Assembly (NCBI RefSeq): GCF_030605225.1
Contig: NZ_JAUWAV010000032.1
Span: 1-49,266 of the forward strand
DNA from: Geoalkalibacter sp.
GTDB taxonomy: Bacteria; Desulfobacterota; Desulfuromonadia; Desulfuromonadales; Geoalkalibacteraceae
Length of the DNA: 49,266 bases
Reading direction: 5' to 3'
Of the stretch, positions 32,212-34,594 are shown piece after piece. Under the pieces are notes generated by a model, which did not search any database, had not been told where the DNA came from, and saw only the letters and a list, made by a program, of their open reading frames with translations. The position numbers and the translations under genes were made by a program. How positions within the stretch are numbered: the first letter of the stretch is position 1; each line of letters opens with the position of its first letter.

Positions 32212-32239
32212 AAAAGGCTGTCCCGGCGGGCAGCCTTTT
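32212..32239 (+). terminator. Terminator between convergent pyrE and the FL-domain gene
   Basis: AAAAGGCTG 32212-32220 with CAGCCTTTT 32231-32239 and an inner CCC/GGG pairing; T-rich DNA follows on the plus strand and a TTTT run on the minus strand, so it can serve both pyrE and the nadB operon. Just upstream are two ACCAAGGAC units (32182-32206). Confidence 0.8.
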
Positions 32240-32447
32240 ATTCTTCCTCAGGAATTTTGAAGACTTCCAAGACGCCCGGCAAACTCCTGAGCTCATCGCG
32301 GTCAATCGTCTTGGTTTCCCCGATGACGCCGATGATCGTGCGGTTGGCGCCGGTGGATTGGTGGAAATCAAAATCACGCTCGACCAGATACTGCTTGACC
32401 CCACGCATGTCCGCCTCGGTGGCGGATCTCTTCATGACAATCAGCAT
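32238..32447 (-). CDS. Stand-alone DAHP-synthase-type regulatory domain (ferredoxin-like)
   Basis: The 69-residue product, MLIVMKRSATEADMRGV then HQSTGANRTIIGVIGETK and LRSLPGVLEVFKIPEEE, strongly resembles the N-terminal ferredoxin-like domain of type I-beta DAHP synthases, but there is no catalytic domain after it: the stop lies in the terminator. In those synthases this domain carries tyrosine feedback inhibition. It starts two bases after a chorismate mutase, so the pair is likely made together. It may be a trans-acting sensor or an adaptor; there is no experimental support here. Function unproven. Confidence 0.75.
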   Translation of the reverse strand: MLIVMKRSATEADMRGVKQYLVERDFDFHQSTGANRTIIGVIGETKTIDRDELRSLPGVLEVFKIPEEE

Positions 32448-32449
32448 CC

Positions 32450-32722
32450 TTAGCTCCCTTTTGTTCTGATGCGCTCCAGGCTGCGCGATTCGTCGATGAC
32501 CCTCTCAAACAGTCTGACGATGGCGCCGTCGTCGAGGGGACCAGGATTGGCCGCCTTCATCCGCTCGAAGATTTTCTTTTCCCGCTCGGGATCGTAGACC
32601 GGCAAACCGAGCTTTTTTTTGTGGTGGCCGATTTCGAGAGCAAGTTGCGCCCGCTGATTGAAAATTTTCAGCAACTCGTCATCAAGATGGTCGATCTGCT
32701 TGCGGATGTCGCTGATGTCCAT
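32450..32722 (-). CDS. Chorismate mutase, AroQ type
   Basis: Rearranges chorismate to prephenate for Phe and Tyr synthesis. The 90-residue all-helical product has catalytic residues placed as in the E. coli AroQ domain: Arg7 (DIRKQIDHLDDEL), Arg24, Lys35, Arg47 and Glu48 (YDPEREKKI). It is a free mutase, not fused to prephenate dehydratase or DAHP synthase. It follows nadB by 28 bases and is followed at once by the ferredoxin-like domain gene. Confidence 0.88.
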   Translation of the reverse strand: MDISDIRKQIDHLDDELLKIFNQRAQLALEIGHHKKKLGLPVYDPEREKKIFERMKAANPGPLDDGAIVRLFERVIDESRSLERIRTKGS

Positions 32723-32750: not shown

Positions 32751-34349
32751 TCAGTAGGTCTTGCGGATCACCGTGTCTTTTTTCCAGTGGATGTCGTCGG
32801 TCTCGGGAAAGTCGATGGTGTAGTGCAGGCCGCGACTCTCCTTGCGCTCCAGGGCGCAGCGGATGATGAGTTCGGCGACGGTGGCGATGTTGCGCAATTC
32901 AATGAGGTCGGAGGTGATGTAAAAGTCCCAGTAATAATCGGCGATTTCTTCCTGAATCATCTGAATGCGGCGATGAGCGCGCACCAGGCGTTTGGTGGAA
33001 CGTACGATGCCGACGTAATTCCACATGGACAGACGGATTTCGTCCCAGTTGTGGGCGACAACCACCTCTTCATCGCTGTTGCGCGCCGAGCCGCTGTCCC
33101 AGGCGGCGATGGGAGGGAAGGGCAGGGCCGGCTCCGAAAGTCGTTCGAGGCAGACCTTGGCGGCGCGCTCGGCATAAACCACGCCTTCAAGAAGGCTGTT
33201 GCTGGCCAGGCGGTTGGCGCCGTGAAGGCCCGTGCAGGCAACTTCGCCGATGGCGAACAGATTGAGGATGCAGGTTTCGCCCCACGGGTCGGTCTGCACG
33301 CCGCCGCACAGATAATGCGCGGCGGGCACCACCGGAATGGGCTCGCTGGTCATGTCGATGCCGTAGGACAGGCAGGTCTCGGAGATGTTGGGGAAGTGAC
33401 TGCGAATAAAGTCGGCCCCTTTGTGGGTGATGTCGAGAAACACACAATCATCGCCATGCACCTTCATCTCGTTGTCGATGGCGCGCGCCACGATGTCGCG
33501 CGGTGCGAGATCCTTGAGGGGATGGTAGTTCTCCATGAAGGCGGTGCCGTCCTTGCGCCGCAGAATCGCGCCCTCGCCTCGCACCGCCTCGGAAATGAGG
33601 AATGATTTGGCGTGAGGATGATAGAGGGTGGTGGGATGAAACTGCATGAATTCCATGTTGGCGATGGCCGCGCCGGCGCGATAGGCCATGGCCAGGCCAT
33701 CGCCCGTGGCTACATCGGGATTGCAGGTGTAGCGATAGACCTTGCCGCAGCCGCCCGTGGCGAGAATGGTGAAACGCGCGCCGAAGGTCAAAACCTCGTT
33801 GTTGACGATGTCAAGGATATAGGCGCCCAGGCAGCGGTTGGGATTCATCCGGCGGTGCAGGGCCTTGGCCTCTGTGATGAGATCGACGGCGATATGATTT
33901 TCGAAAATCTGGATGTTGGGGTGGCGGCGCACGGCTTCGATAAGGGCTCGTTCGATTTCGCGGCCCGTCACATCCTGCACGTGAAAAATGCGTCGTTCGC
34001 TGTGGCCACCTTCGCGGTGCAGGTCAAAGCTCTGGTCGGCCTTGCGGGTGAATTCCACACCCCAGTCGATGAGATTCTGAATGGCCTGGGGACCACTTTC
34101 GATGACCATGCGCACCACTTCGGGATGGGACAGATGCACGCCGGCGACCATGGTATCCTCGATGTGCTTGGCGAAGGAGTCTTCCGGCGTAAACACCGAG
34201 GCGATGCCGCCTTGCGCCATATTGGTCGCCGAATCGGCGAGTTCTCGTTTGGTCACCAGGGCGACCCGGCCTTGGGCGGCGACCTTGAGGGCAAAGGACA
34301 AGCCGGCGATGCCACTGCCGATGATCAGAAAATCCGAGGTGATCTTCAT
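32751..34349 (-). CDS. nadB: L-aspartate oxidase NadB
   Basis: Oxidises L-aspartate to iminoaspartate, the first step of NAD synthesis; FAD enzyme. The 532-residue product has the FAD motif DFLIIGSGIAGLSFALKVA, TNMAQGGIASVFTPEDS, HYLCGGVQTDPWGET with the active-site region, and TGLHGANRLASNSLLEGVV. ATG 34349 has GGGAGA nine bases upstream; the open frame upstream to 34505 crosses the promoter. No nadA or nadC is in the window. It heads a minus-strand unit with chorismate mutase and the FL domain. Confidence 0.94.
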   Translation of the reverse strand: MKITSDFLIIGSGIAGLSFALKVAAQGRVALVTKRELADSATNMAQGGIASVFTPEDSFAKHIEDTMVAGVHLSHPEVVRMVIESGPQAIQNLIDWGVEFTRKADQSFDLHREGGHSERRIFHVQDVTGREIERALIEAVRRHPNIQIFENHIAVDLITEAKALHRRMNPNRCLGAYILDIVNNEVLTFGARFTILATGGCGKVYRYTCNPDVATGDGLAMAYRAGAAIANMEFMQFHPTTLYHPHAKSFLISEAVRGEGAILRRKDGTAFMENYHPLKDLAPRDIVARAIDNEMKVHGDDCVFLDITHKGADFIRSHFPNISETCLSYGIDMTSEPIPVVPAAHYLCGGVQTDPWGETCILNLFAIGEVACTGLHGANRLASNSLLEGVVYAERAAKVCLERLSEPALPFPPIAAWDSGSARNSDEEVVVAHNWDEIRLSMWNYVGIVRSTKRLVRAHRRIQMIQEEIADYYWDFYITSDLIELRNIATVAELIIRCALERKESRGLHYTIDFPETDDIHWKKDTVIRKTY

Positions 34350-34488
34350 CGGGAAAGTCTCCCATGCAAAGACGAAGGAAAGAGTTGGACGGGCGGGCGC
34401 GAATCCTGCAAGAAAAAATACCTCAGGTTGGTGGTGGTCCGTTACGAAGGTTCTGTGGCGGACGGGAGGTCGATAGAGGCAACGTGCC

Positions 34489-34518
34489 ATTATGAAAAGC
34501 GGCAAGAGACCTTGTCAA
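34489..34518 (-). promoter_or_regulatory. Promoter of nadB
   Basis: Minus-strand TTGACA (34518-34513), 18-base spacer, CATAAT (34494-34489): a perfect -35 and a five-of-six -10, 140 bases before the nadB start. Confidence 0.65.
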
Positions 34519-34541
34519 GCCTTTTGACACAGCCAAAGTCG

Positions 34542-34570
34542 TTGAAATTTTAGTTACTTTCAGTTATATT
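34542..34570 (+). promoter_or_regulatory. Promoter of the lytic transglycosylase gene
   Basis: TTGAAA (34542-34547), 17-base spacer, TATATT (34565-34570), 24 bases before the ATG. It points away from the nadB promoter, only 23 bases away. Confidence 0.6.
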
Positions 34571-34594
34571 GGCAAACTTCGAGGTTTTTCTCTC

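Follow-up and report, generated by a model that had tools for sequence, protein, structure and literature searches.

The locus analysed here raises the question of what a regulatory domain does when it is encoded separately from the enzyme of which it is usually a part. The minus strand of a 49,266-nucleotide stretch of Geoalkalibacter sp. DNA (the window) contains a gene for a free-standing DAHP-synthase ferredoxin-like domain (FXD), and next to it a gene for a free-standing chorismate mutase (CM). Textbooks present the feedback control of aromatic biosynthesis as a matter of domain fusion, whereas here the sensor has apparently been kept unfused across a bacterial class. An earlier note on this DNA raised the idea that the domain is a sensor that acts in trans on a distant DAHP synthase. 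As set out below, a sensor acting in trans is supported by the present analysis, a synthase as its target is not, and the adjacent mutase is the likelier client.

The nadB–CM–FXD cluster

The FXD gene occupies positions 32238..32447 of the minus strand. Its 69-residue product matches the Pfam family PF18152 (DAHP_snth_FXD) along profile positions 1–65 of 67 with a score of 71.2 bits (cut-off 27), and this is the sole Pfam family found at E values up to 1. At the same E limit, the only solved sequence relatives are three T. maritima-type DAHP synthases (E 1.5e-5 to 1.7e-5). The AlphaFold2 model of FXD, calculated with an alignment of 87 orthologues, has a b-a-b-b-a-b fold and a mean pLDDT of 92.3. 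Its top fold matches are both to the T. maritima regulatory domain, in 4grs (a chimera bearing this domain; TM 0.89, Z 12.5) and in 1rzm (TM 0.85, Z 11.7), and other ferredoxin folds reach Z 8.3 and less. The earlier assignment of the protein to the DAHP-synthase ferredoxin-like domains is thus borne out by both its family and its nearest folds, and the protein is a member of PF18152. It is not a chance open reading frame because orthologues are found across the class. With the domain of the T. maritima type I-beta DAHP synthase (1rzm, 3pg9, 4grs), FXD has in common the family, the fold (TM 0.85–0.89) and the residues H29 and S31, which in the T. maritima enzyme we take to help bind tyrosine. 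Unlike that domain, the free FXD is not fused to a synthase barrel (its stop codon follows residue 69, 6 residues after the predicted strand b4), is paired with CM, and additionally has invariant D27, Q30 and T32.

The gene immediately upstream (32450..32722, minus strand) encodes CM, a free-standing protein of the AroQ type that is 90 residues long. It is preceded in turn by nadB (32751..34352, minus strand), the gene of L-aspartate oxidase, identified with the nadB equivalog models. The gaps between these genes are 28 bases (nadB–CM) and two bases (CM–FXD). The open reading frames therefore agree with the earlier description of free-standing FXD and CM separated by two bases and arranged with nadB as in an operon. 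As also described, the nadB–CM–FXD cluster contains no DAHP synthase gene. The purine-rich stretch AAAAGGGAG (32454..32462, minus strand) is a putative ribosome-binding site of FXD. It sits within the 3' end of the CM gene, immediately 5' of the FXD start codon, and this position suggests that CM and FXD are translated in a coupled manner.

Further possible signals flank the cluster. A terminator-like hairpin of 12 pairs (32212..32239), situated where the FXD gene and a phosphoribosyltransferase gene converge, overlaps the last part of the FXD stop codon. It scores as a terminator on the plus strand only, in a scan that yielded 4 sites overall against 2.8 expected (sd 1.6), no excess over shuffled sequence. 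Two sigma-70-like promoter matches precede nadB on the minus strand (34489–34575; 11 and 10 of 12), and the promoter scan of the region gave 3 sites against 1.0 expected.

The CM protein matches CM_2 (PF01817) with 94.2 bits. Residues R7, R24, K35, D44, R47, E48 and S79 presumably correspond to catalytic positions of the E. coli mutase, and E83 to Gln88; the mapping combines the aligned ranges with the E. coli sequence and the roles of its residues. R7, R24, K35, R47, E48 and E83 are present in 148 of 148 sequences, D44 in 146/148 and S79 in 141/148, so that the position of E. coli Gln88 is a Glu in all 148. Judged by these roles, CM has the usual AroQ catalytic set and is a predicted mutase. 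A further CM domain of the source genome belongs to PheA, which also has an ACT domain of its own, and a prephenate dehydrogenase gene adjoins pheA. For Geobacter, PMC1173090 gives the gene order aroQ-pheA > tyrA.

Spread of the free FXD and its linkage to CM

In what follows, the class is the bacterial class of the source genome, 277 genomes of which were scanned for FXD. A match of some kind is present in 271 of them and the free-standing type, counted as a best E < 1e-20, in about 252. The scan of named-species genomes gave 80 FXD loci. The best 30 are all free-standing (55–94% identity, one of them cut by a contig end) and belong to Desulfuromonadales and their relatives, including Geoalkalibacter, Desulfuromonas and Geothermobacter. 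The other 50 are frames of 228–357 residues counted from the FXD start, which is the size of a DAHP synthase (336 residues in L089, for example), and some of these are cut by contig ends. When 395 genomes were drawn from the phylum, a strong match was found in 17/17 class members listed. Outside the class, the same draw gave only 9 strong matches, all in family f51, where the free FXD occurs in 9 of 15 genomes among the matches listed. The free FXD gene is old and fixed in the class. In f51, the CM–FXD pair (L120–L128) is patchy and has no nadB nearby.

The earlier note had proposed a search of relatives for the pair, and the pair is there: in 177 of the 180 loci read, CM directly precedes FXD in the same orientation, and the remaining three have upstream sequence of only 0, 7 and 100 bases. 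The 180 loci, some of which share a genome, consist of 30 from the named-species genomes and 150 others, made up of 141 of the roughly 252 class loci plus the 9 of f51; as the loci read are mostly the best-scoring, divergent copies are under-sampled. The gap between CM and FXD is 1–6 bases in 140 of the 177 loci, and the two genes overlap in 14. Gaps of 46–117 bases are found in L133, L137, L138, L213, L217, L223, L226, L233 and L238, which belong mostly to family f25. An in-frame CM–FXD fusion, considered for open frames of up to 602 residues, was rejected: in 20/20 loci read, the two coding regions are in different frames or are separated by a stop codon.

The linkage extends to nadB, which precedes the pair in the same orientation in 165 of the 180 loci. 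It was not seen in 15, namely the 9 loci of f51, five loci with less than 500 upstream bases (L039, L141, L145, L216 and L228) and L227, with 1.3 kb. In the f51 loci, CM adjoins FXD, with an overlap in 7 cases and a gap of 3 bases in 2, and nadB was not found within 2.6–3 kb upstream of the pair.

FXD and the free-standing CM are also absent together. A CM_2 search of the 25 class genomes (out of 277) that have no strong FXD match returned 22 matches in 20 genomes, and 20 of these matches share one frame with prephenate dehydratase, i.e. they are PheA. Eighteen of the 25 genomes have only the PheA-fused CM, and in five CM_2 found nothing. G050 and G188, the remaining two, have a free-standing CM, which in both is located at a contig end. 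The contig of G050 breaks off within the first part of an FXD gene. That of G188 ends 54 bases past the CM stop codon, with no FXD start in those bases; it does not decide the matter because the gap can be as long as 117 bases in other loci. A clear case of a free-standing CM without FXD was not found among the 25 genomes. Thus, in the data read, the genomic pairing of FXD with CM is obligate, which is the pattern looked for in a regulatory subunit of CM.

The presumed ligand strand and its counterparts in DAHP synthases

Strand b2 (D27-F28-H29-Q30-S31-T32) is the most conserved element of the free FXD, with a mean of 0.10 bits versus 0.58–2.63 for the other elements (148 sequences), and all of the 150 free FXDs share the motif H29-Q30-S31-T32-G33. 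The fold places b2 at the edge of the sheet, where ACT-like domains can pair over a ligand. In the T. maritima DAHP synthase, two FXDs likewise come together over the bound ligand. ACT-like pairing over a ligand is also described for the regulatory domain of phenylalanine hydroxylase (PMC4822156).

The source genome encodes two DAHP synthases of type I-beta, type A on C20 and type B on C7. Both carry a complete FXD, which runs counter to the expectation, raised earlier, of DAHP synthases that lack a domain of their own. A third DAHP synthase, on C27, is of the AroFGH type and has no FXD, as is usual for this type, and the fourth member of the family is a KDO8P synthase. The 54 genomes sampled have 2 or 3 FXD matches each, among the matches listed, and therefore at least one besides the free FXD.

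The synthase FXDs were compared in 70 sequences from 47 of these 54 genomes, the source genome's own included. Residue 31 is Ile in 67 of 67 FXDs of types A and B (64 from the class, e.g. L001 and L003). Type A (32 sequences from the class and 3 from f51) combines H29 (35/35) with I31 (35/35) in an H-x-I motif; type B has a P-I-P motif, with H29 in 0/32 and I31 in 32/32. In three canonical synthase FXDs from f51, H29 and S31 are both kept. Synthase FXDs from outside the class carry S31 in 49/49 cases in one outgroup, which was collected by a scan that used peptides of the 69-residue protein as seeds and may favour canonical sequences, and in 25/25 in another, which comprises the best-scoring sequences by Pfam (25 of 29 loci extracted).

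S31 is missing from ten synthase–dehydratase fusions (L361–L370), which belong to the phylum and lie outside the class. These are open reading frames of 629–693 residues that join an FXD, a type I-beta DAHP synthase, a prephenate dehydratase and an ACT domain, a composition confirmed with Pfam for 3 of the 10 and recognised from the sequence itself in the rest. The fusion couples the entry enzyme of the pathway with an enzyme of the phenylalanine branch.

Among the class sequences examined, S31 is found only in the free FXD. The sensor is located beside the branch-point mutase, while the presumed tyrosine site of the synthase FXDs examined has lost one of its residues. This pattern fits a shift of tyrosine sensing to the free FXD, or a split of tasks with synthase FXDs that answer another ligand; the Ile31 FXDs of the class may bind something other than tyrosine.

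The FXDs of types A and B have only about 30% identity to the free FXD. The best tree of 95 domains gathers the 26 free FXD rows in a single group (100/100) with a stem of 1.76 changes per column; types A and B are joined to each other (96/90), outside this group. The origin of the free FXD as a recent copy of a synthase domain is disfavoured by this best tree, but the AU test (76 columns) permits the free FXDs to be joined to type A (p 0.22) or to type B (p 0.40), neither of which is rejected. Aklujkar et al. 2009, in a comparison of two genomes (PMC2700814), mention a tree, not shown, in which GSU1829 / Gmet_1956 cluster with the domains of Gmet_0024. Judged by their description, GSU1829 / Gmet_1956 and GSU1828 / Gmet_1955 are the same gene pair as the FXD and CM described here. 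Their clustering differs from the separate group of free FXDs in our tree (100/100), and the AU test permits either arrangement.

A candidate regulatory subunit of chorismate mutase

The same paper points out that GSU1829 / Gmet_1956 resembles the Phe/Tyr-responsive domain of the T. maritima DAHP synthase, and suggests in one sentence that it may regulate the adjacent CM, GSU1828 / Gmet_1955 (PMC2700814). The idea of a free regulatory domain in this place was therefore anticipated in 2009. In a literature search restricted to open-licence papers, no test of the 2009 hypothesis of CM regulation was found, nor any paper besides PMC2700814 on the four locus tags. To that suggestion, the present analysis adds the class-wide conservation of the pair, the shared absence of its members, its survival where nadB is not nearby and the difference at residue 31.

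The best explanation, to which we assign a probability of about 0.62, is that FXD is a Tyr-responsive regulatory subunit of the adjacent AroQ CM, with which it forms a 2:2 complex, and that its effect is most likely feedback inhibition. The edge strand b2 (H29-Q30-S31-T32) would be the binding site for an aromatic amino acid, most probably tyrosine, over which FXD would pair with another FXD in the manner of the T. maritima domain. The two FXDs would bind and gate the dimeric CM, and the most likely outcome would be feedback inhibition of the prephenate supply for tyrosine. CM is the likely client of FXD because it is the conserved neighbour (177/180). Since PheA already combines a CM with an ACT domain, and the prephenate dehydrogenase gene adjoins pheA, a second, Tyr-controlled CM makes metabolic sense, and a free CM of this kind would complete two feedback loops alongside PheA. 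The portability of the domain may also be counted in favour of a regulatory subunit: in the 4grs chimera, the transplanted FXD reportedly conferred Tyr control. If confirmed, the pair would be a minimal two-part regulated mutase, would be a test of how movable a regulatory domain is between enzymes, and would fill a gap in the control of tyrosine supply in Geobacter-type organisms.

Co-variation lends the contact between CM and FXD no support. Mean-field couplings between the two proteins are within the range of the nadB controls (136 pairs, effective number 75). The distance correlation of CM and FXD is 0.68 versus 0.38 and 0.39 by Pearson, and 0.54 versus 0.52 and 0.61 by Spearman. In the predicted structure of a read-through CM–FXD chain, both domains fold (pLDDT 85.6, pTM 0.64); the prediction carries no interface score and is uninformative on contact. 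The linkage of the two genes could stem from the co-expression of pathway partners, not from contact between their products.

Several known systems resemble parts of this arrangement. IlvN/IlvH of acetohydroxyacid synthase is a separate amino-acid-binding subunit of a biosynthetic enzyme and has a ferredoxin fold. Its likeness to FXD is limited to the fold (2f1f, Z 7.6): it belongs to the ACT family, not to PF18152, and serves another pathway. The E. coli T-protein (CM-TyrA) and P-protein (CM-PDT-ACT) are CM-containing proteins under feedback control, but the control is exerted within a fusion protein, whereas FXD and CM are encoded by separate genes. Feedback control of CM-containing proteins is described in PMC10464499 and PMC1173090. 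In Mycobacterium and Corynebacterium, a free AroQ-delta CM is bound to a type II DAHP synthase and borrows an allosteric device from it (PMC6435475). There, the device is located inside the synthase, whereas here it would be a free 69-residue domain.

The CM–synthase complexes of Mycobacterium and Corynebacterium share allostery (PMC6435475), and a ternary assembly can be envisaged here too, in which CM and FXD would dock on a DAHP synthase via FXD–FXD pairing and respond to one Tyr switch. At least one further FXD match per genome, as found in each of the 54 genomes sampled, could provide the partner. However, the low identity of the type A and B FXDs to the free FXD speaks against such pairing, and we consider the assembly unlikely.

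Control of a DAHP synthase in trans, the proposal of the earlier note, would mean that the free FXD lends Tyr sensing to a synthase, by pairing with the Ile31 FXD of an I-beta enzyme or by acting on the AroFGH type. The presence of Ile31 in both types of synthase FXD (35/35 in A, 32/32 in B) versus S31 in the free FXD speaks for this rival, and effector binding is described to rearrange the domains of the T. maritima DAHP synthase (PMC5545217). Yet both I-beta synthases of the source genome are equipped with complete FXDs, and the free FXD gene adjoins CM and disappears together with the free-standing CM, which makes a synthase target quite improbable. A shared sensor is similarly doubtful: FXD homodimers would act on CM, while mixed pairs with the Ile31 FXDs would act on both DAHP synthases, and the free FXD would be the cell's only aromatic sensor of the Ser31 type. 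If this were true, one diffusible 69-residue domain would set the tyrosine response at the branch point as well as at the entry step.

Regulation of CM by FXD could also have the opposite sign. The strict co-occurrence and close gene coupling of the two would suit an activator or a chaperone needed for full CM activity as well as a feedback inhibitor, and a CM whose activity is boosted by a partner protein is known (PMC6435475). A pure chaperone, however, would not need the presumed ligand strand to be its most conserved part, and CM, with its usual catalytic set (Glu in place of E. coli Gln88), has no obvious defect to be remedied, so that this role is again a rather improbable one. Finally, it is scarcely credible that FXD serves NadB or another neighbour and stands beside CM incidentally: nadB precedes the pair in the same orientation in 165/180 loci, but the 9 f51 loci retain the CM–FXD pair without nadB nearby, which argues against regulation of NadB, and the fused FXD matches examined are all in DAHP synthases.
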